Shown here: one piece after another, positions 2,479-19,090 of the stretch
Numbering within the stretch: position 1 is the stretch's first letter
How the letters are laid out: every line of letters starts with the position of its first letter
Translations under genes and position numbers: made by a program
IMG/VR virus record: IMGVR_UViG_3300007540_003771
Coordinates: 1 to 20,293 of that record
Origin: a virus
Reading direction: 5' to 3' (one strand)
DNA length: 20,293 bases
The notes under the pieces: model-generated
Told to the model about the DNA's origin: nothing
The model's database searches: none
Seen by the model: only the letters and a program-made list of their open reading frames with translations

Positions 2479-2479
2479 A

Positions 2480-2817: not shown

Positions 2818-2832
2818 TGGTACAATGGAGTC
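2818..2832 (+). promoter_or_regulatory. Extended -10 box six bases before an ATG (leaderless-type start)
   Basis: TGGTACAAT (2818-2826) fits the extended -10 pattern TGnTANAAT. It is followed by six bases (GGAGTC) and then the ATG at 2833, so transcription starting at the usual distance would begin at or next to the start codon. GGAG is present but ends only two bases from the ATG, too close for a normal Shine-Dalgarno site. Confidence 0.5.
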
Positions 2833-3741
2833 ATGAAAGATTTCGATAATTTAGTACAGACCCTCAAAGACAAGAAAGACCATAATATTGGTCGTGGTAA
2901 AGAGCTTGAAGACGTTAGATACGTAGTACAGGCTACTGATGCTGTCCAGAAGGCAGTTATTGAGACAGCTAAAGCCATAATAGAATCTCTTACTACAGAT
3001 ATACAGAATGTAAGGGTAACAAACAGCAAAGAGTCCATATCTACACCAGACGCATTAAAAGGTGCTAATACTGTCAAACAGGCAGTAGACAACCTAAAAG
3101 TAGTGCTTGAAGGTAAAGAGGTGGACTTTATGCCTATCCTGGAGCGTTTAGAGAGCGTAGAACAAGCGATAGGCAAACTTCCGACAGAATACCCATCCTT
3201 CCCAGAAATGCCTAAGGAAACGGCTGTAAACAACCTAAAAGAGATTACTAAGTGCATAGACGACTTAAGAGCTGATGTAAAGAAATTAAAGCTAGACCCT
3301 AAGATAACCGTAAAACCTACAGACGTAAAAGTGGAAGCTCCACAAGTCACCGTAGACATGAGCAAGCTGGAAGAAGTAAAAGAAGCCATAGAGGGCATCA
3401 ATTACCCAGACACCTCTGCACTAATCGTTACTCTAATCAATAAAACGGTAGAAGTAACGAATAGTATCAATGAACTAGAGTTTCCTATACCTAACTTCCG
3501 TTCAGCGGACATTATTAATGCTGTAACAGGTAAATCTACAACTGTACCAAGAGTAGAGATAGACACAACCAACTCTCCTGTTATATACTTTGGTAAGGCA
3601 GAACCGTCTGCTAGCAGTAGTGAGTCCAAATGGCAGATAGCTAAAGGAGACACTACAAACGGCTTATCCAAATCATTCCCTGGTGGAGACACCACGTTCT
3701 CATACGTTTGGGATGATAGGGCTTCATTAACATATAATTAG
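2833..3741 (+). CDS. Coiled-coil virion fibre-like protein with C-terminal beta domain
   Basis: The gene encodes 302 residues and ends in TAG. Residues 1-75 and 90-205 are helical with heptad patterns (for example ILERLESVEQAIGKL and MSKLEEVKEAIEGI), with a strand-like KITVKPTDVKVEAPQVTVD stretch between. After FPIPNF near residue 222 the composition changes to a beta-rich domain with TTVPRVEID, VIYFGKA, WQIAKGDTT and the ending VWDDRASLTYN. I recall this ending as a recurrent C-terminal domain of phage virion proteins encoded near the coat gene, in which a coiled-coil stalk carries a small beta tip. A head fibre or decoration is therefore the likely role, by analogy and position. The start follows an extended -10 box by six bases instead of a spaced ribosome binding site. 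Confidence 0.8.
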   Translation: MKDFDNLVQTLKDKKDHNIGRGKELEDVRYVVQATDAVQKAVIETAKAIIESLTTDIQNVRVTNSKESISTPDALKGANTVKQAVDNLKVVLEGKEVDFMPILERLESVEQAIGKLPTEYPSFPEMPKETAVNNLKEITKCIDDLRADVKKLKLDPKITVKPTDVKVEAPQVTVDMSKLEEVKEAIEGINYPDTSALIVTLINKTVEVTNSINELEFPIPNFRSADIINAVTGKSTTVPRVEIDTTNSPVIYFGKAEPSASSSESKWQIAKGDTTNGLSKSFPGGDTTFSYVWDDRASLTYN

Positions 3742-3748
3742 GAGTAAC

Positions 3749-3865
3749 ATGCCAAAGAAAAAAGATGATGTAATCATCAAACCAAATAAAATTAAAATAG
3801 AACCTTTTAAAAAGGTAAAAAAGCTAATAGACAAAGTAAATAATAAACCAAAGAAGGATAAATAA
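3749..3865 (+). CDS. 38-residue lysine-rich peptide
   Basis: ATG at 3749 follows TAGGAGTAAC (GGAG five bases upstream), and the frame runs 38 codons to TAA at 3863-3865. The next ATG lies two bases later. The peptide begins MPKKKDDVIIKPNKIKIE and contains 15 lysines, with few acidic residues, no cysteine and no membrane segment, so it is very basic. It fills the gap between two accepted genes exactly, with a good ribosome binding site, which favours a real gene. Possible roles are nucleic-acid binding or a capsid-binding peptide; neither can be shown from the sequence. TATAAT at 3733-3738, inside the end of the previous gene, could be a -10 box for it, but AT-rich DNA gives such matches by chance. 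Confidence 0.65.
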   Translation: MPKKKDDVIIKPNKIKIEPFKKVKKLIDKVNNKPKKDK

Positions 3866-3867
3866 TA

Positions 3868-4251
3868 ATGGCAAAATTTGTACCAGATGCAACCATAGAT
3901 GCGATGCTTGACGTAATCGCAGACAACGTAGACGAGATTAACATCTGTTCTACGCAACCAACCACATTCGCAGAAGCTAACGCTACCTACGAACTAGGTT
4001 CAGTAACAGTAACTACTGGAGACGGTGGTGGAGACTGGACTATCGCTAACGGTGATACTTCAGGTCGTAAACTAACACTAGGAGAGCAAACTGGCGTATC
4101 AATCGGTACTTCAGGAACAGCAGCTCACATTGCAGGAACTAACGGAACTGATACGCTTTACTTCGTAACTACTTGTACTTCACAAGCAGTAACATCAGGC
4201 AACACAGCAACAATCCAAACTTTCGATATCGAAATACAAGACGCTGCTTAA
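3868..4251 (+). CDS. Conserved phage virion-region protein, possible capsid decoration
   Basis: The gene encodes 127 residues starting MAKFVPDATIDAMLDVIADN. AAGGA lies nine bases upstream of the ATG, and TAA ends the frame. A short N-terminal helix is followed by strands: EINICSTQP, SVTVTTGDGGGDWTIANGD, GRKLTLGEQTGVSI, DTLYFVTTCTSQ and IQTFDIEIQD. I recall close relatives of this pattern (MAK-PDA-IDA start, ANGDTSGRKLT middle, VTTCTSQ-V-SGNT end) as small hypothetical proteins in many phage structural regions. The all-beta composition and place near the coat gene suit a decoration or fibre-tip protein, but no function is established from the sequence. It sits in a tight run with the 38-residue peptide and the Cys-rich gene. 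Confidence 0.85.
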   Translation: MAKFVPDATIDAMLDVIADNVDEINICSTQPTTFAEANATYELGSVTVTTGDGGGDWTIANGDTSGRKLTLGEQTGVSIGTSGTAAHIAGTNGTDTLYFVTTCTSQAVTSGNTATIQTFDIEIQDAA

Positions 4252-4254
4252 CAA

Positions 4255-4275
4255 CTAACTCTAACAAGGAGTTAG
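4255..4275 (+). promoter_or_regulatory. Hairpin that can hide the ribosome binding site of the Cys-rich gene
   Basis: CTAACTC (4255-4261) and GAGTTAG (4269-4275) form a perfect seven-pair stem with a seven-base loop. The Shine-Dalgarno AAGGAG (4266-4271) lies half in the loop and half in the 3' arm, and the stem ends one base before the ATG at 4277. Folding would reduce ribosome access. No T tract follows, so a terminator is unlikely. Confidence 0.5.
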
Positions 4276-4276
4276 C

Positions 4277-4537: not shown

Positions 4538-7363
4538 ATGGCTAATCTATTCAAAGCCAGTGGCGGTACAATTACTCTCACACCGACTACTTCATGGGCT
4601 GCACCTAATGGACTATTCCCTACTACAGATATAGCTGGTACGGGTTATACGTGGACTAGCTCTACATCGACTATTACGTTACCCTCAACAGGACTTGCTG
4701 ATGGTTACTTAGTAGTTGCTGCTTTCGAGTATGAAGATAGCTCTAACGGTAGGCACAACCCGTCTGGTAGGTTTATTCAAGCTAGCGGTACGGGTAACTT
4801 CTCAAGTAGTGCTAGTTCTGGCTATAACAGAGATACCTCAGAGGACAGGTCGTATGTACGTGCTTGGGGCTTTGTTGACAATCCTAGTGCAGGGGCTACG
4901 CTACAGTTCCAGTGGCACAGAGATACCGACCCGCCTACAGGTGGGACTGTTCGTTCAGAGTTACAGGTCATACCTCTCTATTACGCAGATGCAGGTATTT
5001 ATAATTCAACGACTACAACCGTAACTGGTGGTACAACTCCTACTAAAGTACCTAGCCTCTCTGGTACAGACGGTACAAATATCACAATCGCATCTGATGT
5101 CGTATCGGTCACAGGAGATAACAAACGCTACCTAGTCTTTGGTGGGGTGTGGCATGAGGGAGTCGGTGCTACTCGTTCACAGCGTTGGTACGGACTTGGT
5201 ATAGACGGTACTTTAGACGACTCTGCTAAGGGCTATGCTTATATAAGACAAGCTTCTGATGCTAACGGTGGAGAGATGTTCACTCAGATTATTGAGACAT
5301 CAACCGCTACCCGAACTATTGAACTTATGCAGTATAGGGGTAATGGCGTTGCTAATGGTGACGGTGGTGCAGACGTAGACTCAGCCACCACTTCTGCAGC
5401 AGGTATACATGGGCTTGTAGTATTAGAACTTAATGATAATGCAGAGGTGTTTGCCTCACACGATAGTAACGTAAGTTCTGATTTGTCTGCCTCACCAACA
5501 GACCTAGACGTAAACGAAGTGACCGATTTCAATGATACGGCTTCATTCACTGATTTAGCCACCACATCTATAAATGCTGTTAAGACAAACGACTATCTAT
5601 TTGGTGCAAACATATCGGCTGCTTCGAATAATGTTGCCGCTACCACAAGGTGGACTGCCTTTGCAGAGTTCCATGTAAACGGCGTAGAAGATACAGACTC
5701 CTTCGCTGGTGATTACATGAGAAATAACCAGAGTTCCATTGACACCTTTGGCTGGTCAGCTAACCTTATGGGTGCATTAGCTCTAACCGCTGGTGATGAT
5801 GTAGGTGTATCTGTCACAGAACTTACTGGTACAGAGGGCGGTGGTAATGCCATATCCCCTGCTGGTTGGACAGGCTTCTGGGGAGTAAACCTAGACACTC
5901 TAGAGGCTGCTGGAGGTGATGACCACACAATCATATCTAACGATATATCTCTACCACTGACCACAGATAATGCAACAGTTGTAGACGAAGTTACAGTGTT
6001 TACATATTACTTTGATGCTAGCGATGCGAGTGCTTATGACCCTGATGGTGTTTGGGCTGACCTTAACGACGGATTTGACGGAAGCACAGGAACTCTAGCA
6101 AGTACTAGTACTATTGGTAGTAGTACTTCAAATTACTTGCTAGGGGAAGGAACAAATGCTCCATCAAGTGGAGACACTATAACTCAAGTACGAGCTAGGT
6201 TATATGACACTTCTTTTTCTATTGAAATGACCACAGAAATATATACAGACAGCAAAGGAGAATTGTTGGCTACACTCTTAACAGGGGGTGGTGGAAACAA
6301 CTATACAAGTTATACAACTTTGTCTACGCCCACAGGGGGGTGGACCTGGGCTAAACTACAGGCACTAGAGTGTTTAGCCTTTGCTAGAGTAACTGCTGCA
6401 CGTCAGAATAGGGTAGAACTAGAAGTAACGACAAACTCAAGTATTCACACCATAACCCCTCAAGATATTTCCTTATCTCTAACTGAAGACAACACCACGA
6501 TAGACCCTTACCCAGACTGGAATTACACTTACGAAGATGAAGCAACTCTAGGTACTGACAGTACAGACCTAGCTAATACACTTACCACAGCTGAAAAAGG
6601 TGATGTGGAGCTAGATGACAACACCTACTTTGATTTTGAGGCAAGTGACAACGCTGTAAAGCTATTCAAATATACTCACACAAACTCTACTGACAATATA
6701 GAAGTCACTTGGAAGGGTAAAACAACTCTTGCTCCAAGTTCATCTACAGTTTATCTTCAGATTTATAAATATCCATCTGTTAGTACTTATTACTTTGATG
6801 GTTCTGATGCTGCTGCTAGTGATGGTGGTTCTGATTGGAGCAACGTAACTAATGCAGATGACGGTAGTACATCCACACTGGCATCTGTATCTGTAGAGAA
6901 CTCGTCATTATTAAGTATTGATGGCACAGACGCACCATCTTCGGGAGAATCAATTACACAAGTAAGGTACAGAGTATATGGTTCATCCGAAAGGGATGAA
7001 GAAGTTGGTATTGATACTGATGGTGGTGCAGAAAACTTGGGCTATTCTTACACTGCGGTTCCTACTGGTGCAGTTAACGCTTGGGGAAGTTATCAAACAC
7101 TATCAATACCGAGCGGTGGTTGGTCGTGGACTAAAATACAAGCACTAGAGTTTTATTGTTATACGCTATCTGGCGGCTCTAATAGTACGCATATTGGTAA
7201 GGTAGAAATAGAAGTAACTTCAGGTGGCTGGGAAACTCTAGATTCGGATAATACAACTGCTGTGGATACCGAGTTTACATTAACTGGTACTAAAACTACT
7301 GGATTATCAAACTATTATTCTTCTGACGTAGTTTCAGCTAGGGTTTATCAGGTGGTAGTGTAA
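4538..7363 (+). CDS. Large modular fibre/adhesion protein (941 residues)
   Basis: The ATG touches the preceding TAA; translational coupling is likely because no clear Shine-Dalgarno sequence precedes it. Composition is Ser/Thr/Gly/Asp-rich and beta-stranded throughout. Residues 1-300 and 300-455 look like two beta-sandwich regions. At 463-485 there is a single copy of a repeat (HTIISNDISLPLTTDN) and at 637-655 another (HTITPQDISLSLTEDN). Residues about 488-632 and 749-895 are two copies of one domain that opens with YYFDxSDA, contains NAPSSGDTITQVRARLY-like and GGWTWAKLQALE-like blocks, and closes with VELEVT. A third copy begins the next protein. The design suits a host- or glycan-binding virion appendage. 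No enzyme motif was seen. Gene order, downstream of head genes and upstream of a tailspike, agrees. No family name can be assigned without a search. Confidence 0.85.
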   Translation: MANLFKASGGTITLTPTTSWAAPNGLFPTTDIAGTGYTWTSSTSTITLPSTGLADGYLVVAAFEYEDSSNGRHNPSGRFIQASGTGNFSSSASSGYNRDTSEDRSYVRAWGFVDNPSAGATLQFQWHRDTDPPTGGTVRSELQVIPLYYADAGIYNSTTTTVTGGTTPTKVPSLSGTDGTNITIASDVVSVTGDNKRYLVFGGVWHEGVGATRSQRWYGLGIDGTLDDSAKGYAYIRQASDANGGEMFTQIIETSTATRTIELMQYRGNGVANGDGGADVDSATTSAAGIHGLVVLELNDNAEVFASHDSNVSSDLSASPTDLDVNEVTDFNDTASFTDLATTSINAVKTNDYLFGANISAASNNVAATTRWTAFAEFHVNGVEDTDSFAGDYMRNNQSSIDTFGWSANLMGALALTAGDDVGVSVTELTGTEGGGNAISPAGWTGFWGVNLDTLEAAGGDDHTIISNDISLPLTTDNATVVDEVTVFTYYFDASDASAYDPDGVWADLNDGFDGSTGTLASTSTIGSSTSNYLLGEGTNAPSSGDTITQVRARLYDTSFSIEMTTEIYTDSKGELLATLLTGGGGNNYTSYTTLSTPTGGWTWAKLQALECLAFARVTAARQNRVELEVTTNSSIHTITPQDISLSLTEDNTTIDPYPDWNYTYEDEATLGTDSTDLANTLTTAEKGDVELDDNTYFDFEASDNAVKLFKYTHTNSTDNIEVTWKGKTTLAPSSSTVYLQIYKYPSVSTYYFDGSDAAASDGGSDWSNVTNADDGSTSTLASVSVENSSLLSIDGTDAPSSGESITQVRYRVYGSSERDEEVGIDTDGGAENLGYSYTAVPTGAVNAWGSYQTLSIPSGGWSWTKIQALEFYCYTLSGGSNSTHIGKVEIEVTSGGWETLDSDNTTAVDTEFTLTGTKTTGLSNYYSSDVVSARVYQVVV

Positions 7364-7835
7364 TGGCTGTATATACTTATTATTTTAACGCTTCAGATGA
7401 AGGTCCTAGTGACCCAGATTCAGAGTGGACTTCGGACAGTAACCTTTTTGATGGTTCTAGTAGCACTGCCGCAGCCAATAACTCCATAGACAACGGCACA
7501 GATAGTTTTGGGGAGCTTTCAGGCGGTGGTACCAATGCTCCGACTAGCGGAGACACTATATTAAGTGTAAAAGCTAGAATATATGCCGCAGATGCCTTTG
7601 ACACAACAAATGTATTTGCAGCTATTTATACTGATGGTAAATCAGAGTTACTGGGAACACCGAGGAGCAACAGCTCAGACTACGCTAATCCGACTGCTGG
7701 AGCAGACGTAACACTAAATACTCCCACTGGTGGTTGGACTTGGGCTAAACTATCAGCTCTAGAAGTGTACGTATACTACAATGGTGGCTTGGCTGGTTTT
7801 CAGGTAGCATCTTTAGTAGAACTAGAGGTTACTGA
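5999..7835 (+). repeat. Three copies of a ~145-residue beta domain across two genes
   Basis: Copies lie at about 5999-6434, 6782-7225 and 7366-7835. Shared landmarks in order are YYF(D/N)xSD, an (F/A)DGS(S/T)(S/G)T block, (T/D)AP(S/T)SG(D/E)(T/S)I, (A/Y)R(L/V/I)Y, P(T/S)GGW(T/S)W(A/T)K(L/I)xALE and V(E)(L/I)EVT. Conservation is clear in protein and loose in DNA, so the duplications are old. Confidence 0.8.
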
Positions 7836-9015
7836 TTCTTCTCAAACCTTATCTACAGACCAGGTACTCTTTAATTTTACAGAACCTACAATACCATTAA
7901 TAACTCAAGACGCATCTCAAAACTTCACAATAGACACAACAAGCATTACTCAGAACCACGCTATAGGTACAGACGATATAGCGTTTAGTACTGGTGTAGA
8001 TGATGGGAGTATAGGACAGAATCACGTACTACCTACTCAGGACATATCTCATACATCCACACTTGATGGCAGTGCTATTACTCAAAACCATGTAATAGTT
8101 ACTCAGGATATAAGTAATGTATTTACAATAGATGAAGCAGGTTTAGACACCAACACACAACTGTATGTAGATGATGTAGGCAGTGTATTCACTATTGAAG
8201 GCACAGCAATTACCCAGAACCATATATTCACTCCAGATGATATATCCTTTGATACTCAGGTAGATGATGGAGGGCTTAGTCAGAACCACGTAATTGATAC
8301 ACAAGATATAAGCTTAGCAAGTTCAGTAGACACTGCTACTATCACACAGAACCATATAATACCTACGGACGATATTCAATTCACTACCTCAGTAGACAGC
8401 ACCGACCTAGTAGAGAACGTAACTATTGCTACAAATGACATTACATTTACAACTTCAGTAGATGATTCAGGCGTAGCCATAAATGTAGATATAGTTCCTC
8501 AAGATATAAGCCACTCACTAACTATGACTGGTAGCAGTCCCGTACTAGATGAAGCTGGTGAGCCTATACTTGACGAATCAGGTGAGCCTATAACTGATGA
8601 AGCAACTGATGTAGGGCTGATAATCAACTACAGCCTAGATACTGATGATATTAACTTCATTACACAAGTAGATGATGCTGGCTTAATCCAAGACCACGTA
8701 CTTACCCCTGAAGATATAGCCTTCCAGCAAGCTATAGACGGTACGGACATAACTCAGAATCATGTAATAAACCCTGACGACCTACTCCACCTATTCACAA
8801 TAGATACCACAGACCTAGAGCATAACTACAACCTTGCTATAGATGATATAGAGCACACAATAACACTAACCAATACGGTAGTAGAGAACACCAATCACTA
8901 CTTAGCCGACAGCGACATATCCTTCGGTCCTTCCAAGAAAGATTTCTACTTCGATAGTGATGGGAATATTTACTGGGTAATAGACCATAACGTAGGATTA
9001 GTCGAGAAAGTATAA
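7363..9015 (+). CDS. Repeat-built fibre protein (550 residues)
   Basis: The ATG overlaps the preceding TAA by one base (TAATG), with AGGTGG just upstream. Residues 4-158 are the third copy of the YYF/GGWTWAK domain found twice in the preceding protein. Residues 181-515 are about 14 tandem copies of a 22-residue unit with consensus (T/P)(Q/D)DISxxxTxDxxxITQNHVI. One copy is interrupted by a short internal repeat, LDEAGEPI/LDESGEPI/TDEATD (residues 395-416). The last 35 residues form a different end, with KKDFYFDSDGNIYW. Such repeats probably form a stacked beta or extended fibre shaft carrying the N-terminal domain. I recall similar NDIS/TQNHVL arrays in phage virion proteins of unknown function. 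No catalytic site is evident. It is likely a partner or paralogous extension of the preceding fibre. Confidence 0.85.
   Translation: MAVYTYYFNASDEGPSDPDSEWTSDSNLFDGSSSTAAANNSIDNGTDSFGELSGGGTNAPTSGDTILSVKARIYAADAFDTTNVFAAIYTDGKSELLGTPRSNSSDYANPTAGADVTLNTPTGGWTWAKLSALEVYVYYNGGLAGFQVASLVELEVTDSSQTLSTDQVLFNFTEPTIPLITQDASQNFTIDTTSITQNHAIGTDDIAFSTGVDDGSIGQNHVLPTQDISHTSTLDGSAITQNHVIVTQDISNVFTIDEAGLDTNTQLYVDDVGSVFTIEGTAITQNHIFTPDDISFDTQVDDGGLSQNHVIDTQDISLASSVDTATITQNHIIPTDDIQFTTSVDSTDLVENVTIATNDITFTTSVDDSGVAINVDIVPQDISHSLTMTGSSPVLDEAGEPILDESGEPITDEATDVGLIINYSLDTDDINFITQVDDAGLIQDHVLTPEDIAFQQAIDGTDITQNHVINPDDLLHLFTIDTTDLEHNYNLAIDDIEHTITLTNTVVENTNHYLADSDISFGPSKKDFYFDSDGNIYWVIDHNVGLVEKV
7903..8907 (+). 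repeat. Array of ~14 tandem 66-base (22-residue) repeats
   Basis: The encoded units include TQDISHTSTLDGSAITQNHV, PDDISFDTQVDDGGLSQNH and PEDIAFQQAIDGTDITQNH. The period is 22 residues except for one unit enlarged near 8545-8610. Units differ strongly in DNA, so this is a protein-level array and not a recent expansion. Confidence 0.9.
8545..8610 (+). repeat. Internal 24-base repeat (LDEAGEPI) inserted in the 22-residue array
   Basis: Two full copies (8545-8568, 8569-8592) encode LDEAGEPI and LDESGEPI, followed by a partial TDEATD. The 12 bases GGTGAGCCTATA are identical in both. The block breaks the 22-residue period of the surrounding array. Confidence 0.85.
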
Positions 9016-9027
9016 TAGAATATAGAT
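9011..9027 (+). promoter_or_regulatory. -10-like boxes just before the tailspike start
   Basis: TATAAT (9011-9016) overlaps the previous stop codon, and TAGAAT (9016-9021) ends six bases before the ATG at 9028. No Shine-Dalgarno sequence is present. The spacing matches the leaderless-type starts at 2833, 10239 and 18575, although no TG extension is present here. Confidence 0.4.
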
Positions 9028-10215
9028 ATGGGAAAAATTACAAACTACACAGAACTAGCAGAAGCACCAGCAGATGACGACTTATTCGTAATGGTGGATG
9101 TTTCAGATACTACTATGTCTGGAACTGGCACAACTAAACACGTAAAGAAAAGCAACCTCGGTGGAGGAGGAAACCCATATGGAGCACAAACTATAGTTCC
9201 TGACGACTACACCAGTGTAGGAGAGGCTATAGCTGCTTCCACATCAGGGGATACTATATTTGTAAGAAACGGAACGCACGATGAAATTGCATCTAGAACT
9301 GTAACTCAAGGCAGAGTAAACATAATAGGTGAGAGTCATCTAGCTGTAATAAAGTTCGGAAATTATTCATGGTCATTTAGTAACTACAAACGATTCAATA
9401 TATCAAATCTTTATTTAAATTTTAGTGGTACAGGTTCTATAACGGATGGCGGAGTTACATATGATGGCTCTAGTATTACTAATTGCTACATTACTATTAG
9501 TGGTACGAACACCTCCCCAATCAATCTCAACAAACGTGCTTGTAGGTTTATGGGCAATCACTTATGGATTGGCGGTTTACTAAACGGTCCAATGATTACT
9601 GTCGGTGGTCAATCCAATCAAGTAACTGATAACATTTTTGACTTTTATCAACCAAAGTCAGCCTCTACTGTAGTACAGGTGTCTGGTGAGAATAACTCAG
9701 TTAATAATAATATTTTTAGAGGAGACTATGTAAGAACTAATTCATTTGCAGTAAGTCTATCTGGCACAAATAATAGTATTGTTGGAAATGTAATAGAGGG
9801 AGTTTGCAGCGGCATACAGGTTAATGGCTTTTACAATACAGTCTCAAGCAACAATGTAAACATTCCAGCTTCAGCAACTGGCATTGAAATAACTAAAGGT
9901 AGAAATACTGTTACTGGTAATATGGTACGCGGTTATCAAGGTAATTACGGCATTTTAATTGGCTCATATGATGTAACAGTAACTGGTAATACAGTATATA
10001 GCGGTGATACAGCTACTGGCTCAGGAATAGCAGTAGAGCTTGCTGGCGATACCAATAACGTAATTACTGGCAACAGGTCATCAGGGTGGCTACATGGCGT
10101 AAACATAGTGGCAGCAGCCACCGACATAGTAGTAACTGGTAACAACCTAAAAAGCAATGGAACATCACTAACCGACAATGGTAGTGGAACCATTAATTCA
10201 GGAAACGCAACCTAG
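9028..10215 (+). CDS. Tailspike with right-handed parallel beta-helix
   Basis: The gene encodes 395 residues and ends in TAG. Residues 1-50 (ITNYTELAEAPADDDLFVMVDVSDT ... HVKKSNL, read in part) match the short adaptor that attaches many phage fibres to the virion. PDDYTSVGEAIAASTSGDTI (from about residue 63) is the usual opening of pectate-lyase-like helices. From about residue 190 to 385 there are repeated rungs with Asn-Thr-Val-Thr-Gly-Asn character (NQVTDN, NSVNNN, NSIVGN, NTVSSN, NTVTGN, VTVTGN, NVITGN, IVVTGN), typical of NosD/Beta_helix families. These trimeric spikes bind and often cleave surface polysaccharide; I could not place catalytic acids, so enzymatic activity is unproven. The start is chosen because nothing in-frame lies closer to the prior stop. 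The start lacks a Shine-Dalgarno site and follows a -10-like box. Confidence 0.88.
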   Translation: MGKITNYTELAEAPADDDLFVMVDVSDTTMSGTGTTKHVKKSNLGGGGNPYGAQTIVPDDYTSVGEAIAASTSGDTIFVRNGTHDEIASRTVTQGRVNIIGESHLAVIKFGNYSWSFSNYKRFNISNLYLNFSGTGSITDGGVTYDGSSITNCYITISGTNTSPINLNKRACRFMGNHLWIGGLLNGPMITVGGQSNQVTDNIFDFYQPKSASTVVQVSGENNSVNNNIFRGDYVRTNSFAVSLSGTNNSIVGNVIEGVCSGIQVNGFYNTVSSNNVNIPASATGIEITKGRNTVTGNMVRGYQGNYGILIGSYDVTVTGNTVYSGDTATGSGIAVELAGDTNNVITGNRSSGWLHGVNIVAAATDIVVTGNNLKSNGTSLTDNGSGTINSGNAT

Positions 10216-10223
10216 AAGAAACA

Positions 10224-10238
10224 TGGTAGAATAAAGAT
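10224..10238 (+). promoter_or_regulatory. Extended -10 box six bases before the adaptor ATG
   Basis: TGGTAGAAT (10224-10232) is followed by AAAGAT and the ATG at 10239, and there is no Shine-Dalgarno sequence. A 17-base stretch here (10219-10235) is identical to 18555-18571 before another gene, which argues that the motif is functional. Confidence 0.55.
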
Positions 10239-10883
10239 ATGGCAAATACACTAGCAACAATCAGACAAACAGTAAAAGACAGATTAGTAGACCAGAACTT
10301 CTCTTCTGCATTAATTGACCAATTCATTAATGATGAACAAAGAGAAATACTAAACTACTACGACCTACCATTTAACAGGGCTACCGTTGTACATACTTTG
10401 GTACAGGGAGCATCTCAGTTTGACCTTCCAGTAGGACACCAGAAGACTAAAATCCTCCGTATTACAGCACCAGAGAGCTACGACACAGACGTAACACGCT
10501 TCTACCTACCTTACGGGAAGTTCAGAGAAGCTTTCCAGGAGACATCAGGATATTCAGAGAGTATTCCTCGATGGTGGACAATTTATAACAACGAGATTAT
10601 CTTCGCATGGGACTCAGATAGAACATTCACTTTCCAACACGACTACTTAAAGGCTGCAACTGCACTAGAAGATGATGCAGACGAACCTGACATACCTGAA
10701 GAGTTTCAAGAAGTCTTAGTATTAGGAGCACTAGTAAGGTGTTACGAGACTAATGACGATAACGACATCGCTCAATACCAACAGGGTAAAAAGAACCTCC
10801 TAGTAGCAGCTCTGCTTAAACGCTTCAGCCCACAGCAATCAGGCAAGGTAGATGTGTTACGGAATACGAATAGAGGTATATAA
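10239..10883 (+). CDS. Head-tail adaptor/connector-like protein
   Basis: The gene encodes 214 residues. It starts TIRQTVKDRLVDQNFSSALI and continues with DQFINDEQREIL, the helical signature at the front of many podovirus adaptor proteins that dock below the portal (P22 gp4-like role). The middle is beta-rich (ATVVHTLVQGASQFDLP, KILRITAPESY, WWTIYNNEIIFAWD, TFQHDYLKAA). The C-terminal helices, EFQEVLVLGALVRCYETN onward, resemble the closing region of this group. The stop overlaps the ATG of the nozzle-like gene by one base (TAATG), so the two are probably translated together, consistent with one connector complex. Assignment is from remembered motifs and position. It is odd that fibre genes separate it from the coat gene. 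Confidence 0.75.
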   Translation: MANTLATIRQTVKDRLVDQNFSSALIDQFINDEQREILNYYDLPFNRATVVHTLVQGASQFDLPVGHQKTKILRITAPESYDTDVTRFYLPYGKFREAFQETSGYSESIPRWWTIYNNEIIFAWDSDRTFTFQHDYLKAATALEDDADEPDIPEEFQEVLVLGALVRCYETNDDNDIAQYQQGKKNLLVAALLKRFSPQQSGKVDVLRNTNRGI

Positions 10884-12856
10884 TGCCGTCACGCTCAAGA
10901 TTCACAAGAGAAGTACCAAAAGCACCTAAAGGAAGAAAACTAAGCTCCAACATTGTAAAAGACGTTAGGGGTTATAACTCTACAGACCCTTATTCAATCC
11001 TTAAAGACTCTACCTCTCCATACCTTCGTAACGCACGTATGTACAAGTCAGAAGATACTCGACAGGTAGCTATCTCCACACGTACTGGAGAAGAGGCGTT
11101 TTCAATCCCAGTGGGTGAAACCCTAGATGATAGTGAAACAGCGGTTACAGGTGCCTCTACGATTGATGTAGACAATGTAAACATAAGGTCACAGCCTTTC
11201 ACTACTACTACAGCTGGAGTCTTATCTAAAGTAGCTATCGGAGTAGACTCAGCAAACACTAGAGGACCACTACAGGTAAAGGTCTATACAGACTCAGCAG
11301 GAGTACCTAGTACGCTACTAGCTTGCTCTTCAATCGTATCTAGTTCTGTTCCAGGCTCACCTGATTATGTAGACGTATTATTCATAGAAGCACCTACTCT
11401 GGATGCAGCAACAACTTATCACTTAGTATTACAGTCTCAAGAGCAAGGAGACGTATTCACGTTCTCAACTACAACCAACACCACAGACGCAATAGCATCA
11501 ATAGACGCAGGTGCAAACTGGACAGCAACTACCTACGCTATCAACTTCAAACAGTACTATGCTTCAGCTGGTGGAGTAAAAGGTGGAATAAGATTCTCTC
11601 CATCAACAGGAGCTAAGGTTTATTTCTTCGCACATGGCGATAACATCTACTCAGCGGATAATTCCACTGGAGTAGTCACTTCTCAGGTGGGTTCACTAGA
11701 CTCTTCTGCAGAAAAAGTGAGAGTCGCACAATATGACGATGCTGTATTTGCAGTCAATGGCTACGATAACCTACACAGAAGTACTGGAACTACCTTCACA
11801 GACATATCAGGAACCTCTACTACTACAGTCTTCAGCAACATTATCAATCACAGGAACCGACTATTCGGAGTCAAGGCTTCAGAACCTACACGCATTGAGT
11901 GGTGTAACCTTGCAGACTACACAACATGGGAGGGTACAGCCTTTGCATATGTACCAGAACCTAAATCTTCAGACCCTATAACGGGCTTAGTGGGATACCA
12001 AGATGACCTAGTTATATTCACTAGAGACGGCAAGCACAGACTTATAGGCGATTACTTGGAAGAGTACCAACTTGAAGAGGCTTACGGAAACATGGGTGCT
12101 ATATCTCAGGAGGCTATCTGCCAGGATGAGAACTACATCTACTTCGTGGGTACTGACGGACACGTATACCAATGGAATGGAAACGAAGACGTACAACTAT
12201 CACGACCAATAGAGGCAGACCTAGATGACATAGCAGATATAGACAACGTAAGACTTACTTATTACAACGACAGAATCTATTACTGGTTCCAGACTTCAGG
12301 TAGTACAGACTATGACGGATGCTTCGTATACGAGACTAGATTTAAAGAATGGTTCTACGACACTAACCGAAACATCAACGGTGCTATGCTAATGCCACAA
12401 GAAAACAGCATTAAGTACTTCTCATCTAGAATGGGAGCTATCTACTCAGACTCAGAGAATCACTCAGACCTAGGTAGACCGATAGAGTTTGAATACCACA
12501 CCAACTACTTCGACTTCGATGCACCAGACAACTTCAAGCAAGTAAGAAGAATGTACCTTCACTTCCGTATACCTGTATGGAGAGGTGTTACATATATAGG
12601 CACAGACCTAGACTACCGAAACCAGCCAGAATATAAAGAACTGATGATTGAACCAACGGAGACAGGTACGATAGTGGGCTCATTCGTACTTGGAGACGGC
12701 TCAGAATTAGGAGCAAGTGAACAGTACTACCGACACAGGATTAACTCTCCAGGACTAGCTACAGTATTCCAGATAAGGATAATGAAAACAGGAGTAGATA
12801 CACCAGTCTATCTAATAGCTCACTCTCAATACTACCGTAACCGAAGACCTGCATAA
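10883..12856 (+). CDS. Beta-propeller tail nozzle/stabilisation-like protein with inserted module
   Basis: The gene encodes 657 residues. GAGGT lies about six bases before the overlapping TAATG start. Residues 1-65 (DVRGYNSTDPYSIL, SPYLRNARM) and the later blade-like blocks (GLVGYQDDLVIFTRDGKHRL, AICQDENYIYFVGTDGHVYQW, TYYNDRIYYWFQ) resemble the beta-propeller proteins that plug podovirus connectors (P22 gp10-like role). Residues about 100-225 are a separate jelly-roll-like module: QPFTTTTAGVLSKVAIGVD, VKVYTDSAGVPSTLL, and TYHLVLQ. This resembles the choice-of-anchor or carbohydrate-binding domains of surface proteins and appears inserted before the first full blade. The C-terminal part (515-657) is beta-rich. 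It would form the tail tube/nozzle and might also contact the host. Confidence 0.75.
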   Translation: MPSRSRFTREVPKAPKGRKLSSNIVKDVRGYNSTDPYSILKDSTSPYLRNARMYKSEDTRQVAISTRTGEEAFSIPVGETLDDSETAVTGASTIDVDNVNIRSQPFTTTTAGVLSKVAIGVDSANTRGPLQVKVYTDSAGVPSTLLACSSIVSSSVPGSPDYVDVLFIEAPTLDAATTYHLVLQSQEQGDVFTFSTTTNTTDAIASIDAGANWTATTYAINFKQYYASAGGVKGGIRFSPSTGAKVYFFAHGDNIYSADNSTGVVTSQVGSLDSSAEKVRVAQYDDAVFAVNGYDNLHRSTGTTFTDISGTSTTTVFSNIINHRNRLFGVKASEPTRIEWCNLADYTTWEGTAFAYVPEPKSSDPITGLVGYQDDLVIFTRDGKHRLIGDYLEEYQLEEAYGNMGAISQEAICQDENYIYFVGTDGHVYQWNGNEDVQLSRPIEADLDDIADIDNVRLTYYNDRIYYWFQTSGSTDYDGCFVYETRFKEWFYDTNRNINGAMLMPQENSIKYFSSRMGAIYSDSENHSDLGRPIEFEYHTNYFDFDAPDNFKQVRRMYLHFRIPVWRGVTYIGTDLDYRNQPEYKELMIEPTETGTIVGSFVLGDGSELGASEQYYRHRINSPGLATVFQIRIMKTGVDTPVYLIAHSQYYRNRRPA

Positions 12857-13386
12857 TGAAGAGATTAACCCCGATTATCCAGAAGGAACTTACTCAGGTA
12901 GACCAGAACTTCAGAAGAGTAGGTAGGGGCGTAAACGAGATACGTACAGCTAGTGACACTACTAATACTCGTATAGACAATTTAACAGCCACAGTGGGTA
13001 CAGTAATACGTTCAGTTTTACCAACAACTTTTACATCTACAACTTCACCTTCTTATCAAGATACTGGGCTTGATGTAACTCTACCAGAACCAGGAACATA
13101 TATTATTCATTGTGATTTAAGAATTGCTACTTCTTCTACTGCTAGTACGTATGCAACAGTACAGCTTTATAATGAAACAACCTCTACTGAAGTAACCGAC
13201 TCACACAGGATTAGTGGCTATCCAACAGCATCTAATCAGACAACCATTACACTAACAGAGGTGGTAACAACCACTACAGCAGATAATGTAATACGAGTAA
13301 ATATGAAACCAAGTGCCGCTGTAACAGTAATACTCTATAACAACTCAGCAGGTACTAGCGTGATGATAGCTCAGAGGGTAGCATAA
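12856..13386 (+). CDS. Small fibre protein: N-terminal coil plus jelly-roll tip
   Basis: The gene encodes 176 residues, with its ATG overlapping the previous TAA by one base. No Shine-Dalgarno sequence is seen, so translation by reinitiation is likely. Residues 1-50 (IQKELTQVDQNFRRVGRGVNEI) form a coil. Residues 55-176 form a Thr-rich beta sandwich: YQDTGLDVTLPEPGTYIIHC, TYATVQLYN and TTADNVIRVNMK. The YxDTGLxVTLPxPGTYxI pattern is typical of TNF/C1q-like tips in phage fibres, which trimerise and bind host or assist virion stability. The stop is TAA directly followed by TGA, a tandem stop. It sits in the same overlapped group as the adaptor and nozzle genes and so may be a tail appendage. Confidence 0.8.
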   Translation: MKRLTPIIQKELTQVDQNFRRVGRGVNEIRTASDTTNTRIDNLTATVGTVIRSVLPTTFTSTTSPSYQDTGLDVTLPEPGTYIIHCDLRIATSSTASTYATVQLYNETTSTEVTDSHRISGYPTASNQTTITLTEVVTTTTADNVIRVNMKPSAAVTVILYNNSAGTSVMIAQRVA

Positions 13387-13414
13387 TGACTTGCTTTAAG
13401 ACCATAAGATGTAG

Positions 13415-13437
13415 CATAATAATAACTGTAGTATAAT
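13415..13437 (+). promoter_or_regulatory. -10-like boxes before the ejection gene cluster
   Basis: The 60-base gap contains CATAAT (13415-13420), with TTGCTT (13391-13396) 18 bases upstream, and a perfect TATAAT (13432-13437). TATAAT ends nine bases before the ATG at 13447. AGGA (13438-13441) lies five bases from the ATG. Either box could start a short- or medium-leader transcript for the ejection proteins. Confidence 0.4.
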
Positions 13438-13446
13438 AGGAACAAT

Positions 13447-14265
13447 ATGTCAGCAACACCACCACAATTTACAGCACCAATGATAGACACAGCAGCCAAA
13501 ACTAAAGCTCTTGACGGCATCTACAATCCACAAAGTCAATTTATAGAAAGTCAAATAGAACAACTTCCACAATATTATGGAGCACAGAAGGCTTCTATCG
13601 AACAGGCTAAGACTAATGCCTTCAGAGATATAGGCGATACAGCACAGAAGAGGGGCATGTTCTTTAGTGGCTTCCAACCTGCAGAGAACGCTCGCTACTT
13701 AGGTGAGAAATACCTTCCTGGACTAATGGAAGTAGATAATCAGATGAACCGAGAACGTCAGGGCTTACTAGGACAAATAGTAGGACTTAACGCTGACCGT
13801 GGACAACAGATGCTTGGATACTCAGATAAGAATGATGACCGAACCTACGATGCAGCTGGAATGAACTACAACACTAACACTGACTGGTGGAATACTAACC
13901 AACAGTGGGGTAGAGACGATAGGCTGCTGGCTGAAGCTAACGCAAGAGAAGATGCAATCCGAGCAGAACAAAATGCTATAGATGAATCACAATTCTCTAG
14001 GTCAATGGCTACAACTAGAGGCTCAAGTAGCTACACTGGTGGCGGTGGCTCTGAAACCTCTAGGGCTTCAGCAGCTAAAGTATACGGTGATGCACTAGCT
14101 TCTAGGGTTGGTGGAGATGGCAATGTTAGCCCAGAATCATATAGACAGGCAAGAGCCCAATTTGTTATTGATGGTGAGGGTGATGGAAGGGCATTTGATG
14201 ATGCCTTCTGGAAAACATACGTGAATGAAGACCACTGGCAAGATTATATAGTGTATGACGAGTAG
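13447..14265 (+). CDS. Probable internal virion / ejection protein
   Basis: The gene encodes 272 residues and ends in TAG. AGGA lies five bases upstream of the ATG. The front is helical and Gln/Ala-rich, including YNPQSQFIESQIEQLPQYY and the GDTAQKRGMFFSGFQPAEN block, which I recall from phage proteins placed next to large ejected proteins. The middle is Trp/Asn-rich (TDWWNTNQQWGRDDRLLAE), then a Gly-rich hinge (SSSYTGGGGSE), then a short helical end, AKVYGDALASRVGGDGNVS followed by PESYRQARAQFVIDG, that could be an EF-hand-like or assembly domain. No membrane segment is evident. The gene lies nine bases upstream of the giant ejection-type gene. Ejection into the cell is inferred from position. 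Confidence 0.65.
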   Translation: MSATPPQFTAPMIDTAAKTKALDGIYNPQSQFIESQIEQLPQYYGAQKASIEQAKTNAFRDIGDTAQKRGMFFSGFQPAENARYLGEKYLPGLMEVDNQMNRERQGLLGQIVGLNADRGQQMLGYSDKNDDRTYDAAGMNYNTNTDWWNTNQQWGRDDRLLAEANAREDAIRAEQNAIDESQFSRSMATTRGSSSYTGGGGSETSRASAAKVYGDALASRVGGDGNVSPESYRQARAQFVIDGEGDGRAFDDAFWKTYVNEDHWQDYIVYDE

Positions 14266-14273
14266 GGGTTGTT

Positions 14274-17200
14274 ATGTCATGGATAAACAGAAACGACTTT
14301 TACCTCTCACAAGACGAACGAGTAAAGAAGTACTCTAGACAAAGGTCAGAACGTGTCAAACAAGAAATGTCTTCTGAAAACTTCAGAGGTCATCCTTACG
14401 AAACAACACTAAAGACAAATGCAGCCAATAAGTTTAGAGACAAATTTTTCGAACAAACAGATAACAGCAACGCCTTCTTTGGTATAGCTAGTGGACTTAG
14501 AAAAAGAGCTGAAGCTGGAGACGAAGAAGCACAGTATAAATATAAAGCCATCTTTGACGATGAACGCTCTAAGAAGTTCCTCCAACCTAATGACCCAGTA
14601 GACAGAGTAAACCCTAATACTAGCAATGACTTCTTCTCTCAGAAGTCTAGACAACAACTACCTACTAGCCCGATGCAACCTACTCAGAGACCATCTATGC
14701 TCAGTCCTCTCGCTCCTACTCCAGTAAACAAGAGACCAGAAGAACCAGAGGGTGGCTATGGTCCTCAAGACGTAGGCTTTAAAGAAGTACATTCTCCTGG
14801 CACTCAATTATCAAACATGGAAAAGGCTGGCGTAATGGGTGTAGGCTTCCTTCAAGGTATAGCACAGCCATATCTACGTGGTGCTAGGTACATGGATAGA
14901 CAGATAATGCAGAACAGAGACACACAGAACTTCGATAAACAGACAGACTTAATAGACACTCTAGGACAACAAGTGAAGATGTTCAGAGGAATCATAGCTA
15001 GCGATACTGCGACTCCTGCACGTAAAAAGAAAGCCGTAGAAGAGATGAACGCAGCGATGGCTAAAATGGAATCTATCGTAAAAGACCAAAGAGGTTATGC
15101 GGAAGACTATGCAAACTGGGGAGACAACAAAAGAGTAGCAGGTTCAGTAGGGGAAATGGGGCTAGACCTACTAACAGCTGGCTCAATAAGGGCGGCTTCT
15201 AAGCTTCCTGCAGGTGCAAGAGCACTTCAGACCTTTAATACTGGTGTAATTGGTGGTACTGGTATGGGAGCTACAAGTGCTGTACAAGACGATACAGACG
15301 TAGCCTCAGGTGCTATGAAAGGTATGCTATTCGGTGGTGCTCTAGGTCTTGCTGGTGCAGCTGCTCCGTCTATAGGTAAAGCATTTACTGGCTCCGCTGG
15401 TAAGGGTGTTAAAGTCACCAAAACTTATACTAAGGGTGGTGAGAAGCTAACCGATGTAGTGGTAAACGGTAAAACAACTAAGGGTCTACCTGAAGACACC
15501 GTGGCTGCTCTTATGAACTACAAAAGCGGTGGACTGATAAGCAAGATGCAGAACCCAGTACGTAAGTTCGAGAACAAGATAGCTCCATGGGTAGGTAAGA
15601 ACATAAGCAGACCTGTAAGACAACAGGTTAATAGGATTCCAGGTGCTAAGAAAGTTATAGATAGAGCTGGTAGCATTGTAGACCAGATAAATGAAGTTAA
15701 ACTACCTTACAGAGGTCTCAAGGATGCTGAAGGCAATAAGATTACAATGAAGATGGATGAGTTTGCTACCGAGATAAACAAATCTAACAGTGTTGCTATG
15801 AGTAAGCTTACTAAAGACCCTAACTTCAATACACTAGTAGAAATCCTCCAAGCTCCTAAAGGCAAGAAAGCTCAAAAGGCTCTCATGGAGGACTTAGGTA
15901 AGTTCGTAAGTAAGAAACAGGACATTATAAACAACAATAAGCTAGTTGCTACTGGTGCTAAGATTGGAAAGATTAAGAAGGTTCCTAAAGGTACTAAAGT
16001 CCAACAGCAGTACTACGATGCTATGAACAAGATGACTAAATCTCCTATCTCAACCCTCTACGAAGCAGGTAGGATAGATAAGTACACCTACGAGAAGTGG
16101 ATGGCAGACGATGACTATACCCGTGTACAGAGAGAGATAGACGAACAGTTCGGTAACACGACCTTTAATGGTGAGAGTAGTGCTATTAACAGGGGTGGAA
16201 ATGTAGAGATGAAACTCAAAGGGGACCAGAGCCAAGAAGCAGTAGAGCCTCTAGCCGCACTTATGGACTTCTATATGAGAACAGAATCATCACTAGCCAA
16301 GAGAAACTTCGGCAAGTACCTTAAAGAAGTAGGACAGCAGCACAAAGTTATAGGCAAAGCTAAAGTATCCTCAGCTAACGTCAAGATACGTAAAGAAGCT
16401 ATAGGAGCTATGCTACAGAACTCAGCCTTCAAGAAAGTGCTTACCAGGTTCCAGAAGTCTCAGAATAAATACATAAGGAAGATACAGACAGAACTAAATG
16501 GGCTAAACAAAGAAGGACTACAGAAAGCTCTTAAATCAGATAAAAAAGGTATGCCTAACTTTAGTCCTGAAGGTCTTAAACTATTAAAACAGAAAGATGT
16601 TAAAAACTTTGCTAATTCTTTAGTAGAACTTAATAATAAAGATTATAACCTATTAAAGAAAATGATAGGAAGAAGAGATAAGAAGTTAGTTACAGCATTA
16701 GATGAATTAGATGTAATACGTAAAGATATAGAGATTAGTTCTGAGTTTAACAAGACTATGAAAGATGTCCTTAAGAAGCATGCTGACTTAGACCACGCTG
16801 GCAAACCTATGCTTAAGGTGTGGAACGATGGAGTCCAGGAACTATATGAGGTAGACGCTGGTACATTTAGACAGCTTAACGGCATGTCCAATAAAGTTAT
16901 GGGCAATACTGCCAGGGCTGCTATGCAAGCTAACCGTATCCTTAGGTTCGGTGCTACAGCAGGAAACCCTTCATTCGCAGCAGCTAACGTAGTAAGAGAC
17001 TTCTTTACTTCAGCTATTCATACCGATGACATATTCGCTACTCACAACCCTATGGCAGTAGGCAGGAGTCTTAAAGAGACTATAGCTAAACCAATAGGTA
17101 GGAGCACTCTAGGGAAACTCGGTAAGAAGGATAGCTTTATTAACAATATGCTACAACCATCTGATGAGTTCCAGCAGTTCCTAATTAAGAACCAGAACAT

Positions 17201-18554
17201 TACTAGAGCAGACCTAGGTAAACAGCTAGATGCAACTATAGGTGAGGTACAGAAGATAATGGGAGTTAAGCGTGATTCTCCTCTACAGACATGGGAAAAC
17301 GTAGTATCAGGCTCAGAGTTGTTTGGTCGCTACCAGAACTTCAGTGGAACACTTAGAAAAGAGATAGCTCAGGGAGACGGCAGCGTAGCATCATTCTCTA
17401 AGGCACTATCTACAGCTAACAGGGCTTCCGCCAAGAACTCCATTAACTTTGCTAACCAGAGTGAGTACGCTAACGCCATTAAGATAATGAACCCATACTT
17501 AAACGCTGGTATACAGGGTTCTAGACAGTTGGGGCGTACATTACTAGACAAACCTATTACCGCATCCTTCAAGATAGTTAGTGGTGTTATAGCTCCTGTA
17601 ATGGCTGCTACCTACTACAACCTAGCAGACCCAGAGAGAGCAGAAGTATATGCTTCAATGCTAGCTACTAACCCTGCTGAAGTAGAAAACAACCTCATCT
17701 TTGTAAAGGGTGATGGAAACGTCATAAAGTTACCTCTACCTCCTGGTATCAATAAGTTCGCTAACCCCTTCAGGAACGCTATAGAGGCAGAGTATGTAGG
17801 AGACCAACAGGGCTTCAAGGATAATGCAGTAGACTTCATGGGAGCATTTAATCCGTTTGGAAATAGCAAAAGTGAGGCTCTAGGAACACTCCTACCTCAA
17901 CCATTGATACCCGTAGTTGAAGATGTTACCAACCATAGCTTCTTCTACGATGATAATATAGTCCCAGAAAACATGGAGTTTACTCCAGAGGAAGAGCAGT
18001 ACTACAACAGTATTCCTCAGTCAGTAAGAGATATAGCTAACATACTTAACATCTCACCTATAAAAGCACAGCACTACATTAGAGGCTATACAGCAGGTGT
18101 AGGTACTGGTGTCTTCGGTACAGCAGATAAGATACTCGGAAGAGAGAGTGGTACTCAGTCCTTTGATGACCAGATACTTAAGAGATTCTACAAACCAGAC
18201 GCTAATAAGGGCGTGTCCAACACTTACTATGACGGTAACAGGGACACTAAAGGTAAGGATGAATTAGATGGAGTCAAAGAATACACCACTAAATCACTTA
18301 CTAAGCTAGTAGGTCAGGGTAAGATAGATGAAGCCAGCAAGAAAGCCGTAGAATACAACGCAGAAGTAGACAGAGCTATAGATGCCCTTACTAACAAGTA
18401 CGGTAGATACGATAGTCAGGCATACGAAAATGGTGACAGTATGAAAGAAATCAGACTAGGCTTACTAGAAGCTATGAAGTTTCCAGTAAAAGATGGAAGA
18501 TTAACTGACGGTTCAATAAACTCACGAAAGAAAATATACGATGAGAGAAACTAA
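14274..18554 (+). CDS. Giant ejected (polyvalent-type) protein with LPD38-like C-terminal half
   Basis: The gene encodes 1426 residues, with AGGGG before the ATG. Residues 1-290 are helical and polar. Residues about 290-370 carry small-residue helices (GMLFGGALGLAGAAAP near 350-365) that could insert into membrane. Residues 430-865 are basic and helical. From about 865 the blocks NRILRFGATAGNPSFAAANV, NFANQSEYANAIKIMNPYL, KLPLPPGINKFANPFRNAI, LLPQPLIPVVEDVTNH and HYIRGYTAGVGTGVFG follow in the order I recall for LPD38 (large polyvalent protein-associated domain 38), which marks phage proteins injected with DNA. No zincin, kinase, methylase or peptidoglycan hydrolase motif was seen. The likely role is capsid-internal cargo that enters the host. 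An AT-rich patch at 16540-16740 has locally different codon use. Confidence 0.75.
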   Translation: MSWINRNDFYLSQDERVKKYSRQRSERVKQEMSSENFRGHPYETTLKTNAANKFRDKFFEQTDNSNAFFGIASGLRKRAEAGDEEAQYKYKAIFDDERSKKFLQPNDPVDRVNPNTSNDFFSQKSRQQLPTSPMQPTQRPSMLSPLAPTPVNKRPEEPEGGYGPQDVGFKEVHSPGTQLSNMEKAGVMGVGFLQGIAQPYLRGARYMDRQIMQNRDTQNFDKQTDLIDTLGQQVKMFRGIIASDTATPARKKKAVEEMNAAMAKMESIVKDQRGYAEDYANWGDNKRVAGSVGEMGLDLLTAGSIRAASKLPAGARALQTFNTGVIGGTGMGATSAVQDDTDVASGAMKGMLFGGALGLAGAAAPSIGKAFTGSAGKGVKVTKTYTKGGEKLTDVVVNGKTTKGLPEDTVAALMNYKSGGLISKMQNPVRKFENKIAPWVGKNISRPVRQQVNRIPGAKKVIDRAGSIVDQINEVKLPYRGLKDAEGNKITMKMDEFATEINKSNSVAMSKLTKDPNFNTLVEILQAPKGKKAQKALMEDLGKFVSKKQDIINNNKLVATGAKIGKIKKVPKGTKVQQQYYDAMNKMTKSPISTLYEAGRIDKYTYEKWMADDDYTRVQREIDEQFGNTTFNGESSAINRGGNVEMKLKGDQSQEAVEPLAALMDFYMRTESSLAKRNFGKYLKEVGQQHKVIGKAKVSSANVKIRKEAIGAMLQNSAFKKVLTRFQKSQNKYIRKIQTELNGLNKEGLQKALKSDKKGMPNFSPEGLKLLKQKDVKNFANSLVELNNKDYNLLKKMIGRRDKKLVTALDELDVIRKDIEISSEFNKTMKDVLKKHADLDHAGKPMLKVWNDGVQELYEVDAGTFRQLNGMSNKVMGNTARAAMQANRILRFGATAGNPSFAAANVVRDFFTSAIHTDDIFATHNPMAVGRSLKETIAKPIGRSTLGKLGKKDSFINNMLQPSDEFQQFLIKNQNITRADLGKQLDATIGEVQKIMGVKRDSPLQTWENVVSGSELFGRYQNFSGTLRKEIAQGDGSVASFSKALSTANRASAKNSINFANQSEYANAIKIMNPYLNAGIQGSRQLGRTLLDKPITASFKIVSGVIAPVMAATYYNLADPERAEVYASMLATNPAEVENNLIFVKGDGNVIKLPLPPGINKFANPFRNAIEAEYVGDQQGFKDNAVDFMGAFNPFGNSKSEALGTLLPQPLIPVVEDVTNHSFFYDDNIVPENMEFTPEEEQYYNSIPQSVRDIANILNISPIKAQHYIRGYTAGVGTGVFGTADKILGRESGTQSFDDQILKRFYKPDANKGVSNTYYDGNRDTKGKDELDGVKEYTTKSLTKLVGQGKIDEASKKAVEYNAEVDRAIDALTNKYGRYDSQAYENGDSMKEIRLGLLEAMKFPVKDGRLTDGSINSRKKIYDERN

Positions 18555-18559
18555 AAACA

Positions 18560-18574
18560 TGGTAGAATAAACAT
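18560..18574 (+). promoter_or_regulatory. Extended -10 box six bases before a fibre ATG
   Basis: TGGTAGAAT (18560-18568), AAACAT and ATG (18575) repeat the arrangement at 10224-10239 almost base for base. No Shine-Dalgarno sequence precedes the gene, and the intergenic gap is only 20 bases. Confidence 0.55.
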
Positions 18575-19090
18575 ATGGGATTAATCAGCTACACCAAAAT
18601 CAAAGACGGAGACTCAGCAACAGGCACACTGTTCAATAGTCCCCTAGAAACTATTTATAACGAATTTAACGGAAACATAGGCTCTGTAAACATAGCTAAT
18701 AACGCTGTAACAGGGTCTAAGATAGCAGATGCTACAGTAACGCCAGCTAAACTAGATACAAGTCAGAAGTTCACTCTAGTAGCTACCGATACAATAGTGT
18801 CATCTTCAACAATCACACCGACTACAAGCGTAGATATGTTCACGGTCACAGCTCTAGCAGCTGCAGCAGACGTAGAGGCTCCTACAGGAGTACCTATAGA
18901 AGGTCAGACACTTTTACTTAGAATCAAAGACAATGGAACAACTAGAGCACTTACTTGGAACGCAATATACCGACCAGTAGCAGTAGAGCTACCAGCCGAT
19001 ACAGTAGCTAGTAAAATTATGTATGTAGGTGCAGTTTATAACAGTACAGAAGTAAAGTGGGATGTAGTAGCTGTCGGAATAGAGGAGTAG
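18575..19090 (+). CDS. Tail or head fibre protein
   Basis: The gene encodes 171 residues and ends in TAG. Residues 1-60 (YTKIKDGDSATGTLFNSPL, then NIANNAVTGSKIADATVTPA) are the collagen-like/beta-prism segment commonly seen in phage fibre N-termini. Residues 65-171 form a compact beta tip: FTLVATDTIVSSSTITPT, LLLRIKDNGTTRALTWN, YRPVAVELP and YNSTEVKWDVVAVG. I recall this tip (RxKDNGTxRAxTW and KWDVVAV) from many phage fibre proteins. Expected role is host contact or virion stability. The start is not preceded by a Shine-Dalgarno site but by an extended -10 box, which suggests a separate leaderless transcript inside the late block. Confidence 0.82.
   Translation: MGLISYTKIKDGDSATGTLFNSPLETIYNEFNGNIGSVNIANNAVTGSKIADATVTPAKLDTSQKFTLVATDTIVSSSTITPTTSVDMFTVTALAAAADVEAPTGVPIEGQTLLLRIKDNGTTRALTWNAIYRPVAVELPADTVASKIMYVGAVYNSTEVKWDVVAVGIEE

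Follow-up and report, generated by a model that had tools for sequence, protein, structure and literature searches.

Extended −10 boxes six bases upstream of start codons predict leaderless genes in an uncultivated phage group

Analysis of a 20,293-base virus record (the window), a fragment of a podovirus-like phage, reveals four genes on the forward strand in which a −10-like hexamer ends exactly six bases before the ATG start codon. Three of these boxes, at 2818, 10224 and 18560, are very probably extended −10 promoters that give rise to leaderless mRNAs, the box at 9016 being less certain. It is from sequence patterns that we infer the transcription start point, promoter activity, translation from a 5′-terminal AUG and the use of host RNA polymerase.

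Promoter-like boxes in the window

The window has 17 called gene starts, and its products include the C-terminus of a portal protein, the major capsid protein, a set of fibre-like proteins, an SU10-type adaptor and a large protein bearing LPD38. Two long genes without Shine-Dalgarno sequences occupy positions 4538–9015, are coupled to the preceding stop codon and appear to be made of repeated fibre-like segments. The stop codons of the 17 genes are TAA (12) and TAG (5); TGA is absent both as a stop and in frame, although some TGA stops are used in the relatives. Codon preferences are ATA for Ile, AGA for Arg and CTA for Leu.

The four motifs of the original prediction are all present. The first is an extended −10 box, TGGTACAAT, at 2818–2826, preceding the ATG at 2833 of a gene of unassigned function (2833–3741, 302 aa). 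The second is TAGAAT at 9016–9021, which overlaps another hexamer, TATAAT (9011–9016), and lies before the ATG at 9028 of a gene encoding NosD-like beta-helix repeats (9028–10215, 395 aa; Pfam NosD, 2.7e-6), whose product is a probable tail spike. The same extended box, TGGTAGAAT, occurs both at 10224–10232, before the SU10-type head-tail adaptor gene (10239–10883, 214 aa; Pfam SU10_adaptor, 3.7e-19), and at 18560–18568, before a phrog_3030 gene (18575–19090, 171 aa) and probably tail-fibre associated. In each case six bases separate box and ATG, so that the first T of the hexamer is exactly 12 nt 5′ of the start codon. A TGN immediately 5′ of the hexamer is present at 2818, 10224 and 18560 and absent at 9016, which is a weak candidate.

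Two further boxes on the same strand add to these four. An intrinsic terminator with a 9-pair stem followed by a T run lies 3′ of the major capsid gene (2446–2478; RNA fold −15.9 kcal/mol, z −4.1), and directly 3′ of it is an extended −10 box, TGCTATAAT, at 2480–2488. This box is leadered, with 25 nt to the ATG at 2514 and an AAGGAG Shine-Dalgarno sequence, and the ortholog of the 2514 gene in the relative L068 likewise has TGTGGTAAAAT and a leader with a Shine-Dalgarno sequence upstream. The other is TATAAT at 13432–13437, 9 nt from the ATG at 13447 and thus with a predicted 3-nt leader; the gene (13447–14265, 272 aa) is a late gene of unassigned function with orthologs in six relatives. Fusion of a terminator to an extended −10 box is seen in the window (2446–2488) and in the relatives L096 (20966–21005) and L109 (15120–15165), the T run touching or almost touching the TG.

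The four genes were also claimed to lack a usable Shine-Dalgarno sequence, and this holds: none is present at 9028, 10239 or 18575, and at 2833 there is a GGAG just 2 nt from the ATG, which is too near for use as one. That most other genes possess a Shine-Dalgarno sequence is roughly right, with the qualification that the starts at 4538, 7363, 12856 and 14274 are without one too, the first three of these abutting or overlapping the preceding stop codon.

The spacing is unusual within the window itself. TANAAT lies at spacing 6 from 4 of the 17 gene starts and at any other spacing from at most one, and it is found at spacing 6 from none of the 363 ATGs that are not gene starts. When the upstream regions were shuffled 3000 times, four TANAAT at any spacing were reached only once, and TAKAATN6ATG occurs four times in the window compared with 0.51 expected from shuffling, three of the four being claimed sites. 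The excess at spacing 6 thus survives the comparison with shuffled sequence proposed in the original prediction.

Box spacing across the phage group

Relatives were found through searches with capsid, tail and portal proteins. The first set consists of L068, whose capsid protein is 69% identical to that of the window, L069/G001 (42 kb), L070, L098, L100, L101 and MW202692.1 (L096; 44.9 kb, Manatee Spring); L108 to L111 were found later, and G004 to G007 last. The first set, the window included, contains 77 extended −10 boxes of the form TGNTANAAT, and an ATG stands at offset 6 from 14 of them versus a mean of 1.2 over the other 44 offsets, these sites coming from related phages, so that the samples are not fully independent. 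Frames of at least 40 codons are opened at 10 of the 14 offset-6 sites, versus 0.64 at other offsets, and with the window left out 11 of 73 boxes have an ATG at offset 6.

Several comparisons bear on the specificity of this peak. First, hexamers without the TG show almost no excess, with 8 at offset 6 and about 6.5 expected. Second, none of 11 altered control motifs gives a peak at offset 6 in the same phage group. Third, the held-out contigs G004 to G007 contain eight forward matches versus none for the reversed pattern, G004 and G007 sharing both of their sites. Fourth, unrelated phages (402 kb) have three at offset 6 and a mean of 1.1 elsewhere. No leaderless peak is seen in L003–L031, which were found via the 18575 protein and served as a negative control, the rest of the genome being too remote.

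A cluster arising by chance from a common AT-rich motif in a genome of 42% GC is therefore a reading with practically no probability left to it, the shuffles, altered motifs, held-out contigs and unrelated phages all speaking against it, and it is conceivable for the box at 9016 alone. In its favour, a near-identical 19-mer also occurs inside coding sequences of unrelated viral contigs; a search of viral contigs for the exact 19-mer was set aside, its matches being mostly chance ones within one coding sequence.

It is the sites carrying the TG that account for the excess, which fits a promoter better than a ribosome site. The TA-rich stretch might otherwise be read as a translation signal, an A/U-rich enhancer of ribosome binding, given that A/U-rich leaders can aid ribosome binding without a Shine-Dalgarno sequence. 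Such a signal is very unlikely to explain the pattern, as the surplus depends both on a TG preceding the hexamer and on a single exact spacing, and the same core also lies 20–38 nt from starts that have leaders of their own. The extended −10 reading, with a leaderless transcript, has strong support at 2833 and good support at 10239 and 18575; at 9028 it is weak because the TG is absent and sites without it are scarcely in excess at spacing 6.

Transcription start point and polymerase

The −10 hexamer spans positions −12 to −7, and +1 is the seventh base after it; at spacing 6, +1 would therefore be the A of the ATG. The flanking bases fit this placement. The base at −1 is T or C at all 15 leaderless sites, compared with 62 of 167 (37%) other ATG starts (Fisher 1e-6), and at leadered boxes the predicted +1 is A in 21 of 24 cases. 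A pyrimidine at −1 and a purine at +1 are the usual preference of transcription starts and are not asked for by translation. The claim that transcription starts at the ATG thus gains support at 2833, 10239 and 18575 from the spacing statistics, the held-out relatives, the −1 pyrimidine and, as set out below, the kept spacing and the terminator junctions at orthologs of 2833, and does not extend with any firmness to 9028, which is without the TG.

No −35 element accompanies the boxes, the −35 score at the 15 leaderless sites being at the random level (2.87 versus 2.89). An ordinary −35/−10 promoter reading was rejected, a consensus scan having given fewer matches than shuffles. Sigma70_r2 and r4 domains have no match in seven viral contigs (the window being a fragment) and MW202692, and a T7-type RNA polymerase (PF00940) is absent from four contigs of 41–44 kb and MW202692; the positive controls and the T7 control were matched. 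A phage sigma factor of the phiEco32/SU10 type and a T7-type phage polymerase were accordingly discarded as candidates, neither family having a match in the near-complete relatives, and because of this the host RNA polymerase is the likely transcribing enzyme.

Start codons

It could be argued that the boxes are ordinary promoters with normal leaders and that the true start codons lie further downstream, since the starts were called by computer and the GenBank start of one ortholog itself appears to be misplaced. That ortholog of the 2833 gene, UOF80561.1 (L096, 19985–20989, minus strand), has a GenBank start that falls in the loop of an intrinsic terminator, and its true start is likely the ATG at 20959, 6 nt after TGCTATAAT. 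In the window, there is no alternative in-frame ATG, GTG or TTG within the first 40 codons of 2833, 10239 or 18575, and the alternatives that do exist within the first 40 codons of 9028 are without Shine-Dalgarno sequences. The N-terminus of the 10239 adaptor aligns from residue 1 in five relatives, and that of the 18575 product in three. Because of the absence of alternative starts and these alignments the called starts of 2833, 10239 and 18575 are very likely right, wrong start codons were rejected as an explanation, and downstream starts have only a very small chance of being correct.

Orthologous genes in the relatives

Conservation of the motif at a fixed distance, which the original prediction proposed to look for, is found at 2833 and differs at the other genes. 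Four phages, counting that of the window, keep spacing 6 before this gene: TGGTACAAT-ggagtc-ATG in the window, TGATATAAT-gcaaat-ATG in L068, TGCTATAAT-gaactt-ATG in L096 and TGCTATAAT-aacaac-ATG in L109. The letters of both box and discriminator vary while the spacing is kept, and the proteins are only about 21–33% identical to that of the window. The L098 ortholog is an exception, with a spacing of 28. In L096 a terminator hairpin, missed by the pattern scanner and clear in the RNA fold (−21.5 kcal/mol, z −5.3), runs right up to the TG of the box, and in L109 too an intrinsic terminator abuts the box; little besides the −10 box and six bases thus separates the point where the upstream message would end from the coding sequence.

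These arrangements bear on a further explanation, in which translation proceeds mainly from a long upstream transcript, ribosomes reinitiate after the preceding stop codon and the −10-like motif matters little or not at all. At all four window sites the ATG follows the preceding stop codon by just 12–23 nt, and the terminator search found none before 2833, 9028, 10239 or 18575. Because no terminator intervenes, read-through transcripts probably also exist at these sites, and reinitiation could occur across the 12–23 nt. As the main explanation, however, reinitiation is quite unlikely. It does not predict the TG, the TANAAT, the fixed spacing of 6 or the −1 pyrimidine, it sits poorly with a terminator placed directly before the 2833-ortholog box in L096 and L109, and in L068 the gene upstream of the ortholog is a different one from that in the window.

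Spacing 6 is also found at other genes of the group. Genes of about 126 aa resembling terminase small subunits have it in L109, L111, G005, L096 and G001; the PHROG match is limited to the G001 member, which is only weakly linked to the other four. The endolysin gene of G006 also has a box at spacing 6.

At the 10239, 13447 and 18575 genes, the boxes of the relatives are leadered. Orthologs of the 10239 adaptor gene have an extended −10 box upstream, 21–32 nt from the start codon, and those of the 13447 gene have a TG-preceded −10 box with a leader in five relatives, the spacings for these two genes amounting to 20–38 nt where upstream regions are readable. For 18575, the L100 and L101 orthologs have an extended −10 box with a leader, and the L098 ortholog has a Shine-Dalgarno sequence and no −10 box. 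The promoter position at 10239 and 13447 is, as judged from these orthologs, old. The zero leader at 10239 and 18575 may be either lineage-specific or merely unsampled, the latter perhaps because L068 ends short of both genes; no close relatives covering 9028–19090 were found.

The predicted transcripts at four L101 sites (5730, 9097, 13173 and 16277) open with a common 5′-terminal motif after the extended −10 box, AACACGGGC at three and AGCACGGGC at one, and the corresponding motif at L098 9280 and 12526 is AACGGGGC or AACAGGGC. These motifs are often followed by a GTG or TTG start and are not Shine-Dalgarno sequences.

The claim that the late block contains several internal promoters is supported by the relatives, in which extended −10 boxes precede the same genes. 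Restriction to late genes fails as a rule for the group: the G001 strand opposite the late genes also carries boxes with near-zero leaders (20273 at 8 nt and 26654 at 12–13 nt), and the late-block wording is doubtful beyond the window.

Discussion

We propose that the boxes at 2818, 10224 and 18560 and, with less certainty, that at 9016 are extended −10 promoters for a factor of the host's main sigma type, acting without a −35 element. RNA polymerase would start 7 nt past the hexamer, at the A of the start codon, giving each gene a leaderless mRNA of its own, on which ribosomes would bind the 5′-terminal AUG; read-through from upstream would be supplemented by expression of single late genes. 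The group would share one promoter core, TGNTATAAT, with leaders ranging from 0 to about 30 nt and several window genes lying at the zero-leader end. A more elaborate version, in which virion genes (terminase small subunit and the 2833 family) form a dedicated leaderless class whose zero leader is held by selection, perhaps with a phiYS40-like shift of ribosomes to 5′-AUG in a non-Thermus host, is possible but improbable.

With regard to the host, a capsid search of 84,980 species genomes gave no relative, and a RecA query matched an Akkermansia contig in its N-terminal part only, judged irrelevant to the host. Several phage protein matches point to actinobacteriophages, in which the searched collection is rich, and a literature search on leaderless genes in Patescibacteria or Saccharibacteria yielded nothing relevant. 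G001 contains a cluster of 20 tRNA genes (L095, 5615–7688, minus strand) and encodes RNA ligase, PNKP-like and RlaP-like RNA repair proteins, the same set being present in MW202692.

Leaderless mRNAs for virion genes are thus very probable, on sequence grounds, in an uncultivated phage group, and the arrangement appears to have been retained at the same genes even as their products diverged to about 25% identity. Leaderless initiation in phages becomes testable beyond Thermus, TGNTANAAT-N6-ATG offers a simple marker for correcting gene starts such as that of UOF80561.1, and there is a hint about the host, in that its ribosomes and sigma factor would have to recognise such signals.

Leaderless initiation is an established though infrequent mode of gene expression, and both leaderless mRNAs and extended −10 late promoters are already known from Thermus phages. 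In phiYS40 most middle and late transcripts have no leader, and the phage induces a change of IF2 and IF3 (PMC3594737). The likeness is in leaderless late genes, predicted here; the host there is Thermus, and here predicted leadered and leaderless genes are mixed. The late mRNAs of the Thermus phage P23-45 are reportedly leaderless. Its middle and late promoters, under the gp39 switch, are of the extended −10 class and use host RNA polymerase (PMC7403470). Promoters of that class are predicted here too, but a relative has such boxes on its opposite strand too, and no late-only switch is evident.

Among bacterial genes, a -10-like TANNNT whose first T precedes the start codon by about 12 nt is a mark of leaderless genes, and such TA-led genes make up more than 20% of genes in Actinobacteria and Deinococcus-Thermus; the first known case of leaderless initiation came from lambda (Zheng et al. 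2011, PMC3160421). The first T lies at exactly this distance at 4 of the 17 window starts, the differences being that here a phage group is concerned, a TG precedes the box and the spacing is exact. The lambda cI mRNA made from PRM starts at the AUG. The window genes resemble cI in being phage genes whose mRNA is predicted to start at the AUG, but cI is a regulated repressor gene, whereas those described here are structural genes in series.
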